Positions 45,601-64,000 of a DNA stretch of 64,000 bases are shown one piece after another. The position numbers and the translations under genes are program-made. Source of the stretch: Streptomyces mirabilis (GTDB lineage: Bacteria > Actinomycetota > Actinomycetes > Streptomycetales > Streptomycetaceae); the NCBI RefSeq assembly GCF_018310535.1, contig NZ_CP074103.1, forward strand, positions 310,001 to 374,000, given 5' to 3'. The notes beneath the pieces were generated by a model. The model ran no database searches. It was not told the origin of the DNA and saw only the letters and a list, made by a program, of their open reading frames with translations. The number at the start of each line of letters is the position of its first letter. Position 1 is the stretch's first letter.

Positions 45601-46578
45601 TCAGCGCATGGTGGTGACCTGGGCGGCGGGCGTGCCGTCCGGGCAGTAGTTCAGCTGCGTCGCGGCCGCCGCAGGGCCGCCGACGACCAGCAGCGGCACG
45701 GCGAGCGCCACGGCAGCCGTCAGCGAACCCGCCGCGACGCGGAGGCGGCTCAGCGGGTGATGCGGCTCGATGAGGCGGCGTACCCGGCGGGCGGCGGTGG
45801 AGCCGCCCGCCGCGAGGGCCACGGCCGGAGTGTGTCCGCCGGCGACCGCGAGCAGCGCGGCGGCGGTGGTCAGCCGTCCGGAGCGGCCGGCGGCCACATC
45901 GTCGGCGCGCATCTCCACCAGCCGGGCGATCTCCGCCTCAGCGATACGGAACAGGGGGATCCGGGGGAAGGCGCGGGCGAGCGTCTGCGCCCAGGTCAGC
46001 ACGGCGTCGTGCCGCTCGGCCTGGTGGGCGTGCTCGTGGGCGAGGACGGCCGTGAGCTGGTCGTCGTCCAGGGTGTGCAGGGCGCCGGTGGTGATGACGG
46101 TGCGGCGGTGGCGGCCGGGCAGGCAGTAGGCGGCGGGCTCGTCGTGGTCGAGGATGACCACCCCGCGTACGGGGTCGGCGCGGCCGACCATGTCGAGAAC
46201 GTCGCGGTGTTCCCGGCGTTCACGGCGGATGCGCAGGAGGGCCGAGCCCGCGCACCAGGCCACCCTGCCCAGCACGGCCAGGGCCAGGGCGGCTCCGGCC
46301 GCCCCGGCGGCGGCTCCGCCCGGTGAGGCGTATTGCGCGGTCAGCGCCATCACGCACGCCTGCAGCACCGCGGCGAGGTCGGCGCTGACGCGCACGGTGG
46401 GTACGGTCAGGGCGAGCCCGGCCAGGACGGCGGCGGTGAGCGCCGAGGCACCCAGCACCTGCCAGACCACGATGCCCAGCCGGGGTGCCCGCTCGGCCCA
46501 GCCCGCCCCGCGCAGCAGTCGGGGTGCCAGGGTGCACAGCAGGACGGCGTACGCGAAGAGGACGGCGGCGACGATCAC
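45601..46578 (-). CDS. M56 family metallopeptidase (BlaR1-like, no sensor domain)
   Basis: A 325-aa membrane protein with several helices and an M56 active site LTAVLAHEHAHQAERHDAVL (HExxH), followed by RLVEMRADDVAAGRSG with the third ligand region. No penicillin-binding sensor domain. GTG 46578 overlaps the end of blaI (GTGA). M56 proteases next to BlaI inactivate the repressor upon signal; here the context suggests metal or thiol stress rather than beta-lactam. Confidence 0.9.
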   Translation of the reverse strand: MIVAAVLFAYAVLLCTLAPRLLRGAGWAERAPRLGIVVWQVLGASALTAAVLAGLALTVPTVRVSADLAAVLQACVMALTAQYASPGGAAAGAAGAALALAVLGRVAWCAGSALLRIRRERREHRDVLDMVGRADPVRGVVILDHDEPAAYCLPGRHRRTVITTGALHTLDDDQLTAVLAHEHAHQAERHDAVLTWAQTLARAFPRIPLFRIAEAEIARLVEMRADDVAAGRSGRLTTAAALLAVAGGHTPAVALAAGGSTAARRVRRLIEPHHPLSRLRVAAGSLTAAVALAVPLLVVGGPAAAATQLNYCPDGTPAAQVTTMR

Positions 46579-46946
46579 TCCGACACCTCCCTGGCCACGG
46601 CCTGGCCGAGCAGCCGGTGCAGCTCCTCGGCCTCGCCCGGCTGCATCTGCTGCACGAACCGGGCCAGCGTCGCGGTGCGGTTCCCCGCCACGGACAGGGC
46701 CTCGTCCAGCAGCCCGGCGACGTACTCCTCGCGGCTTCTGGTGGCCCCGTACCGGTAGGCCCGGCCGTCCTTCTCCTTCGACAGCCAGCCCTTGCGGAAC
46801 AGGATCTCGGTGACCGTGTGCACCGTGTTGTAGGCGGGCTCCGGGTCCCGGCCGAGGCGGTCGAGGACCTCGCGGACACGCAGCGGCCTGCCCGCATCCC
46901 ACACCGCATCCATGATCGCGGCCTCCAGCTCACCGAACTGCGCCAT
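46575..46946 (-). CDS. BlaI/MecI/CopY family transcriptional repressor
   Basis: A 123-aa winged-helix repressor: LEAAIMDAVWDAGRPLRVRE, YNTVHTVTEILFRKGWLSKE (recognition helix and wing) and YRYGATRSREEYVAGLLDEA with the C-terminal dimerisation helix. ATG 46946 follows GGAGGA. One predicted operator lies 40 bp upstream. No Cys-rich CopY tail, so metal sensing would come through the M56 partner. Confidence 0.9.
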   Translation of the reverse strand: MAQFGELEAAIMDAVWDAGRPLRVREVLDRLGRDPEPAYNTVHTVTEILFRKGWLSKEKDGRAYRYGATRSREEYVAGLLDEALSVAGNRTATLARFVQQMQPGEAEELHRLLGQAVAREVSE

Positions 46947-48992: not shown

Positions 48993-49101
48993 TCGCACCC
49001 CGTCCGCCGGTCGCCGACCGGCGGAACCGGATGCCCGATCAGCCCGGCACGCCGTCATGCGCGCGTGCCCTCCTCCCGATTCCCGACGGAGAACCTCACG
49101 C

Positions 49102-50193
49102 ATGGCCTCGACGCTCGCCCTCTTCCTCACCAGCGCCGGCACCGGTCTGCTGGCCGGAGGCGCCTCCTGCGCCGCCGTACAAGGCGGTCTGCTCGCCGGC
49201 GCAGTCGGCCGCCGCACCGCCCCGCACACCCCTCGACGCGCACGCGGCGCGACCACCCGGCAGCAGGCCACCGAACCCCTGGCCCCGGTCGGCGCCTTCC
49301 TCGCCGGAAAGCTCCTCTCCCACACCCTCCTCGGCACTCTGCTCGGCGTCTTCGGCGCCGCACTGCAGCCCAGCCCCCGCACCCGGGCGGTCCTGCTCAT
49401 CGCTGCCGCGCTCGTGATGCTGCTGTTCGCCCTGGACCTGATGGGGGTCAAGGCGGTGGCCCGGCTGGTGCCCCGGCCGCCCGCCGCCTTCGGGCAACTG
49501 GTGCGGCGCAAGTCCAAGTCCGGTGCCAAGCTCGCCCCCGCCCTGCTCGGCTTCGCCACCGTCCTCATCCCCTGCGGGGTGACGCTCTCCGTCGAGCTGG
49601 TCGCCATCACCTCCGGCTCGGCGGTAGCCGGGGCCGCGGTGATGGCCGGGTTCGTCCTCGGTACGGCCCCGCTGTTCGCTGTCCTCGGCTACGTCTTCCG
49701 CCAGGCCGGGCAGGCGTTCTCCGGGCGGCTCGGCATCGTCACCGGCCTGGTGGTGCTCGCCGTCGCGCTCTGGACGGCGGTCTCCGGACTCCAGGCCGGC
49801 GGCTGGTACACGACGGTGGACACCACCACTCCCGCCGCCGCGGCGGAACCGCAGCCGGGCAGGTCCGCCAAGCCCAACATGCCTGCCCTGCAAGGACCGG
49901 TCACCATCGACGCCGCCGGGAAGCAGACCATCGTCCTGACCGTCACCGACTTCTACGAACCCACCGGCTTCACCGCCCGGGCCGGGGCGCCCACCACCCT
50001 GATCCTGCGCGGTAAGGACTCCGGCGGCTGCGCCCGCGCCTTCACCATCCCCGAGCTCGGCGTCCAGGAGATCGCCAAACGCGACGGCGACACCCGCATC
50101 GACCTGGGCACCCGAAAGCCCGGCAAGCTGCTGTTCTCCTGCGCCATGGGCATGCAGGGCGGCGCGATCGACTTCAAGGAGGGCGCGGCATGA
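49102..50193 (+). CDS. TauE/SafE-like (DsbD_2) transporter fused to a cupredoxin-like domain
   Basis: A 363-aa protein. The N-terminal half is a six-helix SafE/DsbD_2-type transporter (GTGLLAGGASCAAVQGGLLA, FATVLIPCGVTLSVELVA). After a linker, the C-terminal ~90 residues form a cupredoxin-like beta-sandwich with QTIVLTVTDFYEPTGFTARA, CARAFTIPELG and LLFSCAMGMQGGAIDF, the last matching the Cys/Met copper-loop of cupredoxins. ATG 49102. Coupled to the HMA gene by ATGA. Confidence 0.8.
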   Translation: MASTLALFLTSAGTGLLAGGASCAAVQGGLLAGAVGRRTAPHTPRRARGATTRQQATEPLAPVGAFLAGKLLSHTLLGTLLGVFGAALQPSPRTRAVLLIAAALVMLLFALDLMGVKAVARLVPRPPAAFGQLVRRKSKSGAKLAPALLGFATVLIPCGVTLSVELVAITSGSAVAGAAVMAGFVLGTAPLFAVLGYVFRQAGQAFSGRLGIVTGLVVLAVALWTAVSGLQAGGWYTTVDTTTPAAAAEPQPGRSAKPNMPALQGPVTIDAAGKQTIVLTVTDFYEPTGFTARAGAPTTLILRGKDSGGCARAFTIPELGVQEIAKRDGDTRIDLGTRKPGKLLFSCAMGMQGGAIDFKEGAA

Positions 50194-50447
50194 AATGGCT
50201 GCGGGGCATGGCCCGTTCGGAGCAGAGCGGCCCCCATGTCGTCCTCAAGGTCGACGGGATGCACTGCGCGAGCTGCGGTCTGCTCGTCGACGACGAGCTG
50301 GAAGACGTGCCGGGCGTACGGTCCGCTCGTACCGATGTACGCAAGGGCCGCTCCACCGTCCACCTCACCGACGAAGGCTCCACGGACCCGTCGACGCTGA
50401 TCGCGGCGGTCGAGCGTGCGGGCTACCAGGCCACTGTCCTCGTCTGA
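50190..50447 (+). CDS. copZ: HMA-domain metallochaperone (CopZ-like)
   Basis: An 85-aa protein: VVLKVDGMHCASCGLLVDDE carries MxCxxC, with the ferredoxin-like fold continuing through LIAAVERAGYQATVLV. It delivers Cu(I) to P1B ATPases such as the one encoded convergently. ATGA overlap with the transporter. Confidence 0.85.
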   Translation: MKWLRGMARSEQSGPHVVLKVDGMHCASCGLLVDDELEDVPGVRSARTDVRKGRSTVHLTDEGSTDPSTLIAAVERAGYQATVLV

Positions 50448-50518: not shown

Positions 50519-52711
50519 TCACCGCAGCGGCTGGAAGCGCCGCAGCCGCAGGCTGTTGGAGACGACGAAGACCGACGAGAATGCCATCGCCCCACCGGCG
50601 ATCATCGGGTTGAGCAGCCCGAGCGCGGCCAGCGGCAACGCGGCCACGTTGTAGGCGAATGCCCAGAACAGATTGGCCTTGATCGTGCGGAGGGTGCGCC
50701 GGGCCAGCCGGATGGCGTCCGCCGCCGCCCGCAGATCCCCACGTACCAGCGTCAGATCGGACGCGGCGATCGCCGCATCGGTGCCGGTGCCCATGGCTAG
50801 GCCCAGGTCGGCCTGGGCGAGGGCGGCCGCGTCGTTGACGCCGTCGCCGACCATCGCCACCACCCGGCCCAGGTGCTGGAGGCGTTCGACCTCGGCGACC
50901 TTGTCCTCGGGATGGACCTCGGCGATCACCTTCTCGATGCCCACCTCGGCCGCGACCGCACGGGCGGCAGCGGTGTTGTCGCCGGTCAGCAGTACCGGTG
51001 TCAGGCCGAGCCGCTTCAGGTCGGCCACCGCCTCGGCGCTGGTCGCCTTGACGGTGTCGGCGACCACCAGCGCACCGCGCATCTTCCCCTCCCAGGCGGC
51101 GAAGACGACCGTACGGCCCTCGCCCTCGGCCTCCTTCCGGGCCCGGACCAGCTCCTCGGGCAGTGCCTGGCCCTGCTCCTCCAGCCAAGCGGCGCGCCCC
51201 GCGCGCACCGTACGGCCCTCGACCTGCCCGGTGACACCCCGGCCCTGGGTGCTGGCGAAGCCGGTCACGTCAGGGAGTGAGCCGAGCTGCTCGCGCGCAG
51301 CGCTCGCGATGGCCGCGGCGATCGGGTGCTCGCTGGCGTGCTCAAGTCCGCCGGCCAGGCGCAGCACATCCTCCTCGTCCTCGCCGTCCGCCGGTACGAC
51401 GTCGACCAGGCGCATGCGGCCCTCGGTGACGGTTCCGGTCTTGTCCAGCACGACGGTGTCGATCCGCCGGGTGGACTCCAGCACCTCCGGCCCGCGGATC
51501 AGCAGCCCGAGCTGCGCCCCGCGCCCGGTACCAACCATCAGCGCGGTGGGCGTCGCCAGCCCCAGCGCACACGGGCAGGCGATGATCACCACGGCGATGG
51601 CGGCCGTGAGGGCGGTCGCCGCCGAGGCCCCGGTCAGCAGCCACACCCCGAACGTGCCCGCCGCCAGCGCGATCACGACCGGCACGAACACCGCCGAGAT
51701 CCGGTCCGCCAGCCGCTGCACCTCCGACTTGCCGGTCTGCGCCCGCTCCACCAGCGCGGCGATCTGCGCCAGCTTGGTGTCCGCGCCGATCCGCGTCGCC
51801 CGTACGACCAGCCGTCCGTGGCTGTTGACGGTTGCGCCGGTGACCTGCGAGCCCGGCTCGACCTCCACCGGCACGCTCTCGCCGGTCAGCAGCGACTCGT
51901 CCACCGCCGAGGCACCGTCGACGACCTCCCCGTCCGTGGCGATCTTCTCCCCGGGACGCACCACGAACAGGTCCCCGGCCGCCAACTCCTCGACAGGGAT
52001 GCGTATTTCGGTGCCGCCGCGCAGCACGGCGACGTCCTTGGCGCCCAGGTCCATCAGCGCCCGGATCGCCTCCCCGGCCCGCCGCTTGGCCCGCGCCTCG
52101 AAGAACCTCCCGGCCAGCAGGAACGTCGTCAGCACGACGGCGACCTCCAGGTACAGGTGCTCCCCGCCGAGGGCCAGGGTGCCCGCGCTCCACAGATACG
52201 CGGCCAGCACACCCAGCGACACCAGAGTGTCCATGGTCGCCGAGCCGTGTCGCAGATTGAGCACCGCTGCCCGGTGGAACGGCCACGCCCCCCAGGCCAC
52301 CACCGGCGTGGCCAGCGCGAGCGCGATCCACCCCCATCCGGCGAAGTGCAGCGCGGAGATCATCGATATGGCCACCACGGGCAGCCCGAGCAGTGCCGAG
52401 CCGATCAGGCGGCGCCTCAGTCCGGCGACGTGTGTCTGCTCGGCATCGCCAGGCCCGGCGTCTTTTGTCTCCGGCGCGCCGCTTCCCGCCGGCTCGGCGC
52501 CGTAGCCGATGGCCTCGACCGCGGAGACCAGCTCCGCCACCTCGACCGCCGGGTCCTCGCGGGTGACGTACGCGGTGGCGGTCGCCAGGTTCACCGTGGC
52601 GCTCACTCCGGGCAGCTTGCCCAGCCTCCGCTCGACCCGGGCGACACACGAGGCGCAGGTCATCCCGGAGATGGCCAGCTCTATGGGGCCGGTATCCGTC
52701 GTAGTGGACAT
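50519..52711 (-). CDS. copA: Heavy-metal P1B-1 ATPase, copper exporter
   Basis: A 730-aa protein: N-terminal HMA ([20 protein letters not shown]), then eight membrane helices with [19 protein letters not shown] (CPC), phosphorylation [14 protein letters not shown], and hinge [19 protein letters not shown]. The TM7/8 motifs [10 protein letters not shown] and [13 protein letters not shown] give the YN...MxxSS signature of Cu(I)-specific P1B-1 ATPases. ATG 52711 after GGAAGG. It is the second gene of the transcript that starts with the cyclodipeptide synthase (20-bp gap). Confidence 0.9.
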
Positions 52712-52731: not shown

Positions 52732-53439
52732 TCATACTCGGCCGGCCGGGGTGATAACGGCGAAGCCCTGTCCCGCGGCGGGGCGCCAGCTCAGCTCGCC
52801 GGAGTAGAGGCGGCGCAGCACGTCGGGCGGCTGGTGGTAGCAGAAGAGCGATATCCCGGCGTCGACAATGGAGGGGGTGTCCAGGAACAGCGGCAGCTCG
52901 GCCAGGAGGTACCGCACTGCCCGCTCGACCTGCTCCGCATCTGGCCGCTGCCCGGCGGGCAGCTTCCCGGCCAGCACCCAGCCGGACGCCTCCCGGCATG
53001 CATCCCGGAACTCCACGTCCTCGGTGTACCGCCGCAGCCCGTGTTCGTGGAGCCGCCCGAACGCGGCGTTGCCCTCCAGCTCGGCCCAGCCCAGCACGCG
53101 CGCCCCGCGCTGGGTGACGCCGAGTGAACCCAGCGCCGCAGCGATCTTGTTGCGGGTGTACTGCCCCTGCCGACGCGCCTTCCACGCGGCCTTCTCCGGC
53201 GTGTACCCGAGCGCCTCGAACGTGAAGGCACTGGGCGCGTCCGGTACGAAGAAGTCCACTCGCTCAAAGCGGGCCAGCCCCCACGCCGCCAGGTCCCGGA
53301 TCCGGTCGGTGGAGAAGTAGCTGTTGAACGGGCTGATCCCGAAACAGGCGTGCTCGCCCCGCTCCACGACGGCCGCGCACGCGGCGCTCAGCGGCTCCAC
53401 CGTCATCGCCGGACAGCCGTCCCCTTGGTCCGTGCTCAT
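52732..53439 (-). CDS. tRNA-dependent cyclodipeptide synthase (AlbC family)
   Basis: A 235-aa protein, close in length to AlbC (239). The family joins two aminoacyl-tRNAs into a cyclodipeptide. [13 protein letters not shown] carries the catalytic Ser36 (Ser37 of AlbC) and Asn39 of the NYH subtype. A basic helix ([16 protein letters not shown], 86-101) would bind t[17 protein letters not shown] carries Tyr177 and Glu181, and LFCYHQPP Tyr201/His202. The offset to AlbC is exactly one at each site. ATG 53439 lies six bases after the -10 of a MerR-controlled promoter, so the mRNA is probably leaderless. The product cannot be predicted. Confidence 0.9.
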
Positions 53440-53445
53440 GCCCGG

Positions 53446-53477
53446 ACGTTAAAACCTTGCCCTTAGGGCAAGGTCAA
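53446..53477 (-). promoter_or_regulatory. MerR-type operator/promoter for the cyclodipeptide synthase-copA unit
   Basis: A 21-bp palindrome (53454-53474; arms ACCTTGCCC and GGGCAAGGT around TTA) lies between -35 TTGACC (53477-53472) and -10 TAACGT (53451-53446), giving a 20-bp spacer, as in promoters that need a MerR protein to untwist DNA. The ATG follows the -10 by six bases. The divergent MerR gene starts about 40 bp to the right. Confidence 0.85.
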
Positions 53478-53516
53478 GCCGACACTGGAGACACACCCCA
53501 CGAACGGAGCCCCACC

Positions 53517-53930
53517 ATGCTCACCGTCGGCCGCATCGCCGCCGCCTCCGGGCTCAGCCCCAAGGCCGTACGCCTCTACGAGGCCAACGGCCTCATCGAC
53601 CCGCCCGAGCGCACCGCCGCCGGCTACCGCACCTACACCGACGACGCCGTCCCCGTCCTCGGCTTCATCCGCCAGGCCCAGGCCCTCGGCCTCAGCCTCA
53701 AGGAGATCAAGGACATCCTTGACCTCCAGCGCAGCGGCGAGCAGCCCTGCGGTCTCGTCACCGACCTCCTCGACAAGCACCTCGCCGACATCGACCGCCG
53801 CATCGCCGACCTTGAAGCCCTGCGTGCGACCCTCCAATATGCCCGCGCCCAGGCTGATCAGGCCGCAGGCCGCGGGGACAAGGCCCTGGTCTGCCGGATC
53901 ATCGAGAACGCGACCCCAGCCGGCAGTTGA
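53517..53930 (+). CDS. MerR-family metal-responsive regulator
   Basis: A 137-aa protein: HTH LTVGRIAAASGLSPKAVRLY, wing GYRTYTDDAVPVLGFIRQAQ, dimerisation helix to ~110. Cys78 (GEQPCGLVTDLL) aligns with ZntR Cys79, a position that is Ser in Cu(I)-sensing CueR, and Cys126 is in the C-terminal region. The divergent target encodes a copper-type ATPase, so the metal is uncertain: the residue suggests a divalent metal, the neighbour suggests copper. ATG 53517 with GGAG upstream. Most likely activates the promoter at 53446-53477. Confidence 0.85.
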   Translation: MLTVGRIAAASGLSPKAVRLYEANGLIDPPERTAAGYRTYTDDAVPVLGFIRQAQALGLSLKEIKDILDLQRSGEQPCGLVTDLLDKHLADIDRRIADLEALRATLQYARAQADQAAGRGDKALVCRIIENATPAGS

Positions 53931-53975: not shown

Positions 53976-54311
53976 GTGCTGACCATTGCCACCGACATAG
54001 AGGTGCTGGCGCGATTCGGACGCGCCCTCGCCGACCCCATCCGCTGCCGCGTCCTGCTCGCCCTGCGCGAGGCCCCGGCATACCCCGCCGACCTCGCCGA
54101 CAAGCTGCAAATCTCCCGCACCCGGCTGTCGAACCACCTGGCCTGCCTGCGCGACTGCGGCCTGGTCGTCACCGTCCCCGACGGCCGGCGCACCCGCTAC
54201 GAACTGGCCGACGAACGCCTCGGACACGCCCTGGACGACCTCCGCACCGCCATGGTCGCCGTGGCGGCGGACCGCACCTGCGTGGACGCCGACGAGAAGG
54301 GCTGCTGCTGA
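53976..54311 (+). CDS. ArsR-family CmtR-like metal sensor, copy 1
   Basis: A 111-aa winged-helix sensor: VLARFGRALADPIRCRVLL, ISRTRLSNHLACLRDCGLVV (CxxxC on the recognition helix, as Cys57/Cys61 of Mycobacterium CmtR), DGRRTRYELADERLGHALDD, and C-terminal TCVDADEKGCC. CmtR proteins sense Cd(II)/Pb(II). I use GTG 53976 rather than ATG 53961, which matches the length of copy 2 (111 aa). Followed by the cation transporter. Confidence 0.85.
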   Translation: MLTIATDIEVLARFGRALADPIRCRVLLALREAPAYPADLADKLQISRTRLSNHLACLRDCGLVVTVPDGRRTRYELADERLGHALDDLRTAMVAVAADRTCVDADEKGCC

Positions 54312-55003
54312 ATGACCGCGATATCCCTCGCCCCGGCCCGGCCCGCCGCGACGCACTCGCCCGCCGCATACGCCTGCTGGTCGCCGCGACGATCACCTAC
54401 AACGTCGTCGAGGCCGTGGTCGCCCTCACCGCGGGCACCCTCGCCTCCTCCACCGCCCTGATCGGCTTCGGACTCGACTCCGTCATCGAGGTCTCCTCCG
54501 CCGCGGCCGTCGCCCGGCAGTTCTCCGCGCGCGACCACGCCGTCCGGGAAGCCCGGGAAAAGCGAACGTTGCGGATCATCGCCGTCTCCTTCTTCGCCCT
54601 CGCGCTCTACGTCACCGCCGACTCCGTACGCGCGCTGACCGGCACCGGCGAAGCCGACCACTCGGTGCCCGGCATCATCCTCGCCGCCCTCTCCCTGGCG
54701 GTCATGCCGTTCCTGTCCGCCGCCCAGCGCAAGGCCGGCCGCGAACTCGGCTCCGCCTCCGCCGTCGCCGACTCCCAACAGACCCTGCTGTGCACCTATC
54801 TCTCCGCCGTACTCCTGGCCGGCCTGCTGGCCAACCTGCTGTTCGGCTGGACCTGGGCCGACCCGATCGCCGCCCTGGTCATCGCCGCCATCGCTGTCAA
54901 AGAAGGCCGTGACGCCTGGCAGGGCAAGGGCTGCTGCGCGCCCGCCGTCGGTCACACGCCCACCGGAGCCGAACCGGACGTGTGCGGTTGCGCCCCGGGC
55001 TAA
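54312..55003 (+). CDS. Cation transporter copy 1, N-terminal frameshift
   Basis: The body (RRDALARRIRLLVAATITYN ... SVIEVSSAAAVARQFSARDH ... WADPIAALVIAAIAVKEGRD ... GCCAPAVG, CGCAPG) equals the transporter at 58253 throughout its six membrane helices. The ATG at 54312 matches the start of copy 2 (MTAISLAP against MAAISLGP), but one base is missing near 54338, and the remaining frame has no good start. Either a one-base indel, a sequencing error, or a start upstream inside the sensor gene. A working membrane domain would need re-initiation. Confidence 0.7.
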
Positions 55004-58252: not shown

Positions 58253-58972
58253 TCACGAGCAGCAGGTGCAGCCCGGCTTGCAGCCGCACGCGTCTGCCTC
58301 GGCCGCGGTTGCCCCGACGGGGGCCGGAGTGTGGGCGGGGGGTGCGCAGCAGCCCTTGCCCTGCCACGCGTCGCGGCCTTCCTTCACCGCGATGACGGCG
58401 ATGACGAGGGCGGCGATGGGGTCGGCCCAGGACCAGCCGAGGGTGGCGTTGAGGATCAGACCGACCAGCAGGACGGCGGAGAGGTAGGTGCACAGCAGGG
58501 TCTGCTTGGAGTCGGCGACCGCGCTGGCGGAGCCGAGTTCACGGCCGGCCTTGCGCTGGGCGGCGGAGAGGAACGGCATGATCGCCAGAGACAGGGCGGC
58601 TATGACGATGCCGGGGATGGAGCGGTCCGCCTCGCCGGTGCCGACCAGGGCCCGTACGGCGTCGATGGCGACGTAGGCGGCGAGGGCGAAGAAGGAGACG
58701 GCGATGATCCGCAGGGTGGTCTTCGCCCGGGCCTCGCGGACGGCGTGGTCGCGGGCGGAGAACTGCCAGGCGACTGCCGCGGCGGAGGACACCTCGATGA
58801 CGGAGTCCAGACCGAACCCGATCAGCGCGGTCGAGGAGGCGATCGTCCCGGCGGTGATCGCGACGACCGCCTCGATCACGTTGTAGGTGATGGTCGCGGT
58901 GACCAGCAGCCGTATGCGCTTGGCCAGGGCGTCGCGGCGGGCCGGGGACGGGCCCAGGGATATCGCGGCCAT
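58253..58972 (-). CDS. Cation transporter copy 2 (CDF-like)
   Basis: A 239-aa, six-helix protein: ATITYNVIEAVVAITAGTIA, ALIGFGLDSVIEVSSAAAVA, MPFLSAAQRKAGRELGSASA and WADPIAALVIAVIAVKEGRD, with Cys-rich C-terminal tail (CCAPP, CGCKPGCTCCS) suited to soft metals. Intact, unlike copy 1. Starts 1 bp from the end of the CmtR-like gene. Confidence 0.85.
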   Translation of the reverse strand: MAAISLGPSPARRDALAKRIRLLVTATITYNVIEAVVAITAGTIASSTALIGFGLDSVIEVSSAAAVAWQFSARDHAVREARAKTTLRIIAVSFFALAAYVAIDAVRALVGTGEADRSIPGIVIAALSLAIMPFLSAAQRKAGRELGSASAVADSKQTLLCTYLSAVLLVGLILNATLGWSWADPIAALVIAVIAVKEGRDAWQGKGCCAPPAHTPAPVGATAAEADACGCKPGCTCCS

Positions 58973-58973
58973 C

Positions 58974-59309
58974 TCAGCAGCAGTCCTTCGTAGCCGCGTC
59001 CGGGCAGGTCTTGTCTGACTCGACCGCGACCACCGCAGCGAGCAGGTGGTCCAGGGCGTGGCCGAGGCGTTCGTCGGCGAGTTCGTAGCGGGTACGACGG
59101 CCGTCGGGCACGGTGACGACGAGCCCGCAGTCGCGCAGGCAGGCCAGGTGGTTGGACAGCCGGGTCCGGGAGACGCCGAGGATGTCGGCTAGATCGGAGG
59201 GGTAGGCCGGCGCCTCGCGCAGCGCGAGGAGGATCCGGCAGCGGATCGGGTCGGCGAGCGCGCGGCCGAACCGCGCCAGCACCTCGATGTCGGGAGCAAG
59301 AGTCAGCAC
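58974..59309 (-). CDS. ArsR-family CmtR-like metal sensor, copy 2
   Basis: 111 aa, collinear with copy 1 (VSRTRLSNHLACLRDCGLVV; C-terminal TCPDAATKDCC). The CxxxC and C-terminal Cys indicate Cd(II)/Pb(II)-type sensing. GTG 59309 lies seven bases after -10 TATTCT, so it is likely leaderless. Operator CTGAATTCAG at 59332-59341. Confidence 0.85.
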   Translation of the reverse strand: MLTLAPDIEVLARFGRALADPIRCRILLALREAPAYPSDLADILGVSRTRLSNHLACLRDCGLVVTVPDGRRTRYELADERLGHALDHLLAAVVAVESDKTCPDAATKDCC

Positions 59310-62585: not shown

Positions 62586-63845
62586 TCAGGCGGGAAGCGG
62601 CTGGGGAACCGGCGCCGCGAGTCGGCCGGTGCGGGACAGCGCACGGACGGCTGCCGCGCACAGCGCGCCGGTGGCGGCCAGCCCCGCCCAGACGAGCCAT
62701 CCGGCGTGGTGGCGGTGGGCGAAGTCCCACAACGCGCCGGTGGCGAGGTTCCCCAGGGTGATACCGAGGCCGGAGACGGTGTTGTAGAGGCCGTAGTGGG
62801 TGGCGACCAGCCGCCCCCCGGCCAGGGAGATGACGGTGTCCATCTCGAAGGGGTAGACCACCGCGCTGCCGGCCGCCAGCAGCACCACCGCCACCACGAG
62901 CGCCCCCAGCACCACCATCTTCCCCGCCTGTGAGGGCACGAGCGCCAGGGGCGCGAAGGCCAGCCCCATCGCGGCCAGGCCCCGCACCAGGGCCTGATCA
63001 GGGCTCCAGCGGCGGTTCGCCCAGCCGGTCAGGCGCAGTTGCCCCATCACGGCCACCGCCGCGGAGACCACGAACAGGGCACTGGTGGCCTTGGTGCCGT
63101 TGCTGCCGAGCGCGTCGTCGGCGGCCAAGGGCAGCGCGAGGTAGACCTGGAAGGTCAGGACGTAGGAGCCGATCATCGCCAGCGAGAACAGCAGGAACGG
63201 CCGGTTGGCCACGACCGTGCGCCACTGGGCCAGCACCCCGCCCTCCTCTCGCCCGGCAGCGCCGTTCTGCCGGGCGGACGCGGGCAGGGCCCGCCATTGC
63301 AAGATGGTCAGCGCGGCAAAGATCGCGGCGGCCACGGTGCACACCGCGCGGAAGTCGGCGGCCAGCAGGGCGAGTCCGACCAGCGGGCCGAGGAGCATGC
63401 CGGCCTGGTAGTAGACGTTGAAGGTGGCGAACGCGTCGACCCGGCGTTCGCCGGCTTCGGCGGCGAGGTAGGCGCGGACCGCGGGGTTGAACAGGGCGCC
63501 GGCGAAGCCGGTTGCCGCCGAGGCGATGATCAGCGCGGGGACGTTGTCGACCCAGCCCAGCAGGGCGAATCCGGCGGTACGCAGCAGGCATCCGGCGATG
63601 ATGGGGGCTTTGTAGCCGTAGCGGTCGGCGATGGTGCCGCCGATGAGGAACATGCCCTGCTGGGAGAGGTTGCGTACGCCCAGGACCAGACCGACCGTCC
63701 AGGCGGCGAGGCCGAGGTCGCCGGTGAGGTGGGCGGCGAGGTAGGGCATGAGCATGTAGAAGGCGAGGTTGATGGCGAACTGGTTGGCCATCAGCAGCCG
63801 TACGACCGGGGGGAAGGAGGCGGTGGCGGCCCACAGGGTCTTCAT
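62586..63845 (-). CDS. MFS transporter
   Basis: A 419-aa, 12-helix major facilitator: MANQFAINLAFYMLMPYLAA, motif A-like GGTIADRYGYKAPIIAGC, and ATGFAGALFNPAVRAYLAAE, with the second half GQLRLTGWANRRWSPDQALV. It resembles MFS exporters of the multidrug type. ATG 63845 overlaps the upstream gene (ATGA). Cargo unknown. Confidence 0.85.
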   Translation of the reverse strand: MKTLWAATASFPPVVRLLMANQFAINLAFYMLMPYLAAHLTGDLGLAAWTVGLVLGVRNLSQQGMFLIGGTIADRYGYKAPIIAGCLLRTAGFALLGWVDNVPALIIASAATGFAGALFNPAVRAYLAAEAGERRVDAFATFNVYYQAGMLLGPLVGLALLAADFRAVCTVAAAIFAALTILQWRALPASARQNGAAGREEGGVLAQWRTVVANRPFLLFSLAMIGSYVLTFQVYLALPLAADDALGSNGTKATSALFVVSAAVAVMGQLRLTGWANRRWSPDQALVRGLAAMGLAFAPLALVPSQAGKMVVLGALVVAVVLLAAGSAVVYPFEMDTVISLAGGRLVATHYGLYNTVSGLGITLGNLATGALWDFAHRHHAGWLVWAGLAATGALCAAAVRALSRTGRLAAPVPQPLPA

Positions 63846-64000
63846 CGGGCGGCCTCCGCCAGGGTGCAGGCGGCAGCGTCCGGGCCGAGCGCGGCGGTGC
63901 CGGCGAGGGGGTCGGTGACGGTGGTGCACCGCGTCCAGCGGGTGACGGTGCGCTCGCCAGGGAAGCTGATCTCCTCGGGGGCGTCTGGGGGCTGGTGGCC
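63842..64000 (-). CDS. C-terminal end of an unidentified gene (cut by window edge)
   Basis: The last 52 codons of a minus-strand gene that continues beyond 64000, ending in TGA at 63844-63842 with ATGA overlap onto the MFS gene. The visible sequence (EEISFPGERTVTRWTRCTTV, ALGPDAAACTLAEAAR) is insufficient to name a family, but it shares a transcript with the MFS transporter. Confidence 0.6.
   Translation of the reverse strand, partial: GHQPPDAPEEISFPGERTVTRWTRCTTVTDPLAGTAALGPDAAACTLAEAAR

Follow-up and report, generated by a model that had tools for sequence, protein, structure and literature searches.

A cyclodipeptide synthase gene between a MerR-type promoter and a copper-pump gene in Streptomyces

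Described systems and the present locus

Cyclodipeptide synthases (CDPSs) take aminoacyl-tRNA as their substrate, and the catalytic residues of the NYH type are given, in AlbC numbering, as S37, N40, Y178, E182, Y202 and H203 (PMC13062777, available text). Among the described systems, the Rv2275-type cyclodityrosine synthase, associated with a CYP121-like P450 on the mycocyclosin route, has both the family and the NYH residues in common with the synthase studied here. Among solved structures, Rv2275 (2x9q) is the one closest in sequence to our enzyme, with 36% identity, but its pocket differs, and the Streptomyces relatives with an Rv2275-type pocket adjoin a P450, not copA. A second point of reference is the cCC/cCX group (Gondry 2018, PMC5816076), whose cysteine row in the available table text, VGYPSIFF, resembles relatives of our enzyme such as P0181, while carrying S at position 119 where our enzyme has W.

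On the copper side, the CueR-copA export unit shares with our locus a CueR-like MerR, a MerR-type promoter and a Cu+-ATPase, and our locus differs from it in having a CDPS between promoter and pump; the plain form without a CDPS is seen at a related locus, L096. Chalkophores embody the same idea, a bacterial small molecule for copper handling, provided that the CDPS product serves this end; in the descriptions available, those known are either diisonitrile lipopeptides or, as with chalkophomycin, made by an NRPS/PKS, whereas the export operon studied here contains just one enzyme, which depends on tRNA. Additionally, a Burkholderia operon joins a CDPS, proposed to be a siderophore maker, to an oxygenase and siderophore pumps (Skinnider 2018, PMC5767969, available text), and these partners set it apart from our locus. 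The word "copper" does not occur in the main text of PMC5816076, and neither "copper" nor "metal" occurs in that of PMC5767969. Across titles and abstract openings, with few subscription papers among them, no description was found that links a CDPS to copper, heavy metal, MerR or CopA, and the titles and abstract openings on cysteine cyclodipeptides held no report of a CDPS-copper linkage. This agrees with a preliminary description of the DNA, which knew of no CDPS under MerR control in a copper-export unit. The enzyme family is known and its physiological setting is new, and the CDPS-copA unit, placed under a metal-type promoter, is real, conserved and apparently undescribed.

The synthase, its metal island and its promoter

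The window, by which we mean the whole analysed stretch of 64,000 nucleotides from Streptomyces mirabilis, is G000:C2:310001-374000, part of the 517,982-base second contig of a two-contig, 9.6-Mb genome. This contig is probably a large plasmid; linear plasmids of 390 and 320 kb carry the nearest two relatives that have names. The CDPS gene (52732..53439, minus strand) encodes an NYH-type synthase of 235 amino acids that scores 243.9 bits against PF16715 (cut-off 27) and 280.8 bits against TIGR04539 (cut-off 45), placing it in the CDPS family. S36, N39, Y177, E181, Y201 and H202 are all present and are invariant across 52 aligned sequences, the window's included, so that, as far as an alignment can tell, the window is confirmed to encode an intact CDPS. 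The AlbC-like synthase with a full catalytic set claimed in the preliminary description is thereby upheld, and its check for a broken active site, made by alignment, found none.

Directly flanking the CDPS are copA and merR. The absence of a usual tailoring enzyme beside the synthase, noted earlier, holds: with two CDPS-linked P450s as probes, the sole P450 match in the window lies 28 kb off. An ordinary P450- or oxidase-tailored cluster is rejected in view of the flanking genes, and the same two probes gave no P450 match in the loci of the clade to which the enzyme belongs. No tRNA gene was found within the 64-kb window. The copA gene (50519..52711, minus strand) begins with its ATG at 52711, 20 bp after the CDPS stop, exactly the spacing first reported. 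Its product, a Cu(I)-type P1B ATPase of 730 amino acids, carries CPC, YN and MxxSS, the marks of Cu+ pumps, and scores 560 bits against the copper subfamily TIGR01511 (cut-off 397), which together assign it to the copper P1B-1 ATPases.

Further metal genes surround this pair. Convergent with copA lies a copZ-like HMA domain gene (50190..50447, plus strand; PF00403), whose product reaches 56 bits against NF047957, below the cut-off of 85, and next to it a gene for a DsbD-like membrane protein with a cupredoxin domain (49057..50193, plus strand; PF13386, PF13473). A BlaI/CopY-type repressor gene (46575..46946, minus strand; CopY_TcrY 29.9 bits, under the cut-off of 122) is followed by that of an M56 peptidase relative (45640-46572, minus strand), 54% identical to the M56 protein of locus L022. 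The island also holds relatives of CopC, DUF305 and DUF3105, as well as CcdA. Beyond merR, a neighbouring metal unit starts with an arsR gene for a CmtR-like metalloregulator (53976..54311, plus strand; NF047906 at 138 bits, under the cut-off of 150, and NF033788 above its cut-off), which is also present in L020 and L021, and continues with a cation diffusion facilitator (CDF) gene (54311..55003, plus strand; PF01545 1e-12). Two such ArsR(CmtR-like)-CDF pairs, at 53976-55003 and 58253-59309, are 82-84% identical and stand about 3 kb apart in opposite orientation.

A second CDPS from this clade (65% identity; L074 7187-10406, G000:C2:150686-153905) is encoded elsewhere on the replicon, as the third gene of a PALP-MFS exporter-CDPS operon about 9 kb from another copA. 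Its CDPS overlaps the end of the exporter gene, and the exporter overlaps the PALP gene, which is of the cysteine synthase/SbnA kind. A further MFS/PALP pair, 81% and 79% identical to the corresponding genes of L073, spans the right end of the window (62589-64000, with L146 90-2524), and no CDPS match occurs in the 2.5 kb beyond that end.

The merR gene (53517..53930, plus strand; PF09278, PF13411) is divergent from the CDPS and encodes a CueR-like heavy-metal regulator. Its nearest solved structures and models are CueR, with scores below every listed cut-off; against the CueR equivalog TIGR02044 it reaches 96.1, below the cut-off of 147.4, and so falls outside that family. CueR is marked by a Ser in the dimer helix and by a pair of Cys in the loop. 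The window MerR lacks this combination: one of its two Cys, which are invariant in all 21 type-A rows (four of them repeat loci), aligns with the CueR Ser, and only one of the two loop Cys is present. By these features it is not a canonical CueR, and with the sub-threshold score and the missing loop Cys it possibly senses zinc, cadmium or mercury.

Promoters activated by MerR-family proteins have a dyad between -35 and -10 and a long spacer. This layout is found on the minus strand before the CDPS (53446..53477), where TTGACC (53477-53472) and TAACGT (53451-53446) stand 20 bp apart with the 19-bp dyad CCTTGCCCTTAGGGCAAGG (53455-53473) between them; the CDPS ATG (53439) follows 6 nt past the -10. 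The MerR-type promoter facing merR that had been proposed to drive the CDPS was thus located. In all 15 distinct loci of the type-A layout, merR<- ->CDPS->copA (the window, L020, L021, L058-L064, L070-L072, L075 and L077), TTGACCTTGCCCNNNGGGCAAGG sits directly before the CDPS ATG, with no mismatch in 13 and one in 2. The 9.6-Mb genome holds a single perfect copy of the operator, for which reason a wide MerR regulon is rejected; the next best sites have one mismatch. By eye, the ORFs near two chromosomal one-mismatch sites include no evident metal gene among their translations, and the one-mismatch site at L141 adjoins another MerR-type regulator.

In this arrangement the CDPS would head a metal-induced operon, in which the CueR-like MerR would activate the single promoter, RNA would start at or beside the CDPS ATG (a presumably leaderless transcript), and synthase and copper pump would be produced together. 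A promoter shared with the pump, and no tailoring gene adjoining the CDPS, would also suit a brake: as CDPSs consume aminoacyl-tRNA (PMC13062777, available text), the enzyme might drain charged tRNA under metal stress, slowing translation or trimming the thiol amino acid pool, and the dipeptide would be waste. We consider this very improbable, since at L074 the overlaps of the CDPS with the exporter gene, and of the exporter with the amino-acid synthase gene, suggest that the product matters.

Recurrence, controls and natural variants

The preliminary description proposed searching for recurrence of the synthase-copA-merR triple. The triple does recur, at 15 distinct type-A loci on plasmids and chromosome-sized contigs, with 5 variants in addition. 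Matches occur in 22 of 72,556 plasmid records; two named plasmids, at 95% identity, show an identical arsR-merR-CDPS-copA order, and one, at 54.5%, carries CDPS-CopY/BlaI-M56-CopC within a copper and mercury island. A scan of genome contigs, pattern-based and biased to near relatives, returned 16 loci, namely 10 of type A, 5 of type B and L073, and in 15 of these 16 the CDPS has copA and a MerR no more than about 1 kb away. Type B reads CDPS-> <-merR copA->, with a merR different from that of type A; judged by eye, it keeps the -10 and start region before the CDPS while the dyad is degenerate, and the copZ-copA promoter that belongs to the type-B MerR shows a dyad of another sequence. At L073 (60%), a partial MerR match is accompanied by an exporter and a PALP gene.

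An even census of 392 Streptomyces genomes gives a fairer count. A CDPS match at E 1e-20 occurs in 124 of them, and among the matches listed, 19 clade members at 47% identity or more occur in 16 genomes, the next match standing at 39%. Their contexts, among the matches listed, are A (5), C (3, CopY/BlaI-M56), D (10) and E (1, PALP-MFS-CDPS with a cysteine-synthase/SbnA-like gene and an exporter), where D places LysR, an NCS1 permease, rhodanese, thioredoxin, an S8 protease and thioredoxin reductase around the CDPS. By the same census, 11 of the 19 CDPSs listed have no directly adjoining metal genes, which counts against a metal-ligand reading. Among 394 evenly sampled genomes from the class, at E 1e-45, only G620 and G483 match besides the window's genome; G620, of another genus, has two CDPS copies, both by BlaI-M56, and G483 has no marker beside its CDPS. 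Likewise, none of the markers adjoins the CDPS at L125 (another genus, 51%) or on the Legionella plasmid of L023 (39%).

In four more distant loci (class C), the CDPS precedes a CopY/BlaI-M56 pair, and only at L022 does CopC lie in the same gene run; BlaI/CopY-type names do not prove copper. These four loci share a 13-bp element, GCGTGATCCG[CG]AC, about 150-220 bp upstream of the CDPS (L022 7797, L078 7859, L079 7770, L082 7742), which among the fetched loci is found before CDPS genes only.

Other CDPSs served as controls (L003-L011, L013-L019 and L044-L057; 30 records, some places represented twice, with L012 excluded as a clade member). No CopA or MerR match was found in these 30 records, and a P450 match was obtained in 26 of them, against none in the clade loci with the same two probes; L015 and L018 match no probe. 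Seven control loci extended to about 16 kb agree with the small ones, except for a weak MerR match 1.2 kb from the CDPS of L135. The tree had 60 rows, of which 58 differed, and gave support of 100/95 to the clade, which comprises 41 rows; type B is nested inside type A. Seven context labels require 6 changes on this tree, the lowest number it allows, whereas shuffling gives a mean of 29.1; 11 ungrouped rows were left out of this count. The identical rows are L062/L076, which stem from one genome present twice, and L065/L066. At the level of sequence, the intact enzyme, the operon layout, the conserved operator and the recurrence in metal islands are demonstrated, which supports the preliminary interpretation in part.

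Natural variants separate the two genes. With two candidates scored per genome, a full-length copA of at least 74% identity occurs in 7 of 392 genomes, 4 of them with the CDPS, 1 with it internally deleted and 2 without it. At L094 (3717-3893, genome G177) the middle of the CDPS is lost in frame, leaving 58 codons, with promoter and copA intact. In L096 and L097 (larger stretches L128 and L129) the CDPS is absent and copA intact, and in L096 the same operator, with one base changed, stands straight before copA. Conversely, G293 (L077 6711-8741) has an intact CDPS beside a fragmentary copA that lies in three frames with its middle part lost. The ordinary copA genes of the genus (63-69%) have no CDPS match in 23 loci (L098-L120). 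Since it is deleted or absent in related merR-copA units whose copA is intact, the CDPS is an optional module, and export does not need it.

The deletion and the two absences, together with the presence of the CDPS on large linear plasmids, fit a passenger, inserted by chance ahead of copA and behind a merR promoter, that has spread along with the mobile copper island around it. However, dN/dS is 0.18-0.37 for the CDPS in 14 comparisons with the window (0.13-0.34 for copA), which by this measure indicates purifying selection; the catalytic residues are invariant and the pocket residues nearly so; several metal contexts with different regulators recur; and the CDPS is intact next to the broken copA of G293. 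A passenger is therefore very improbable.

Pocket motifs and the candidate product

The proposed alignment with AlbC and Rv2275 left the active site intact, but the pocket, P1 CGFPWLFF and P2 AWVGQPD, proved unlike the VGVTMLFN of Rv2275. The mapping of AlbC positions is sound because the published cYY motif is reproduced for Rv2275-like rows. That motif (P1 VG[VI]TMLFN, P2 LxFxQLP; available text) does not fit the window CDPS, and the name cyclodityrosine synthase, given by JGI to some relatives, is rejected as the pocket differs. P1 is mostly CGFP[WSGMA]LFF in the clade and exactly CGFPWLFF in 82 of the 120 homologues listed; position 119 in these 120 is W in 93, S in 10, G in 10, M in 4 and A in 3.

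Rows of Table 2 of PMC5816076, available as text without numbers, were matched to enzymes via their amino acids. The cysteine row VGYPSIFF fits the cCG/cCC enzyme CDPS 102. P0181 (VGYPSLFF) agrees with this row in 7 of 8 positions, which speaks for a cysteine reading, and the window P1 agrees with it, the one cysteine row used, in 4 of 8. The window P1 agrees in 6 of 8 positions with LGLPWLFF, the row fitting cPM, and in 5 of 8 with CGHPWLLY, which speaks against cysteine; its P2 equals no row in the available text of this table. CDPS 102 itself was sought through Legionella-type relatives, among which motif relatives were found and no protein identifiable as CDPS 102. According to the available text of PMC5816076, the cCC group had 60 members in 2017, the cPX group has 9 whose characterised members are not phylogenetically grouped, a cPX prediction is called uncertain except for close relatives of characterised enzymes, and a large CDPS set remains unpredictable. 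Since the printed cYY, cW and cF motifs misfit and the characterised ones among the 9 cPX members are ungrouped, the clade may correspond to the published cCC group, an elimination that is not decisive; cLL was assessed from two Firmicutes rows only (L026, L027).

The similarity to the cPM-fitting row and, at 5 of 8, to the cPP row (available table text), the W at position 119 in most listed homologues, and an MFS exporter gene, found next to the CDPS at L074 and 2 kb away from it at L073, would suit a hydrophobic or prolyl product, cyclo(Pro-X). Such a compound, without metal affinity, would serve as a signal or act against neighbours, with the metal promoter as its timer. This is rather unlikely, because position 119 varies within the clade, the recurrent neighbours are metal or thiol genes, and the characterised cPX enzymes are phylogenetically scattered (PMC5816076, available text) while this clade is one branch.

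The neighbour genes point toward sulfur chemistry. In class D the thiol-redox neighbours are rhodanese, thioredoxin and thioredoxin reductase; class E has a PALP enzyme of the cysteine-synthase/SbnA kind, and the MFS/PALP pair at the right end of the window points the same way. The best NCBIfam model for the class E PALP is SbnA, under all cut-offs, which counts against cysteine, though its best PDB match is a cysteine synthase. Clade motifs and neighbours together suggest cysteine in the product, with the qualification that the window P1 also resembles prolyl enzymes. The likeliest product would contain cysteine, as cyclo(Cys-Cys) or cyclo(Cys-X). Under metal stress, the CDPS would join two aminoacyl-tRNAs into a cyclic dipeptide, which would serve as a small ligand for soft metals or as a thiol redox buffer, holding copper, or a different soft metal, during its export by CopA. 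We place about even confidence in a metal-induced CDPS-copA operon that makes a probably cysteine-containing dipeptide of this kind, for which we infer induction, product and metal binding; a metal-ligand role is the best, though unproven, reading of the product. More tentatively, Actinobacteria may possess a dedicated metal-induced CDPS branch that uses charged tRNA directly to make a cysteine-containing ring dithiol, a ligand through which soft metal would be fed to copper export. If true, this dithiol would match metallothionein, glutathione or methanobactin in function while deriving from tRNA.

CDPSs are usually treated as genes of antibiotic-type pathways, and a copper and thiol-redox clade would give them a physiological job and extend bacterial metal homeostasis by a small molecule whose synthesis depends on tRNA. 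Recurrence in other Streptomyces hints at an undescribed small-molecule side of copper defence. The metal promoter would supply a precise induction signal for finding the metabolite, and the natural merR-copA units without a CDPS are ready comparison strains.

Two further CDPS settings deserve mention. The class D loci (L080, L081, L083-L090) form a conserved Streptomyces set of LysR, CDPS, NCS1 permease, rhodanese, thioredoxin, subtilisin and thioredoxin reductase, of which we know no description; all seven genes occur in 9 of 10 loci, L090 being without a reductase match, the reductase scores above the TIGR01292 cut-off, and the thioredoxin has, by eye, a signal-peptide-like start. On the Legionella lytica plasmid (L023 5980-8734), a CDPS with the pocket LGFPMLFF overlaps a response-regulator gene and has at least 66 related proteins, few of them named.
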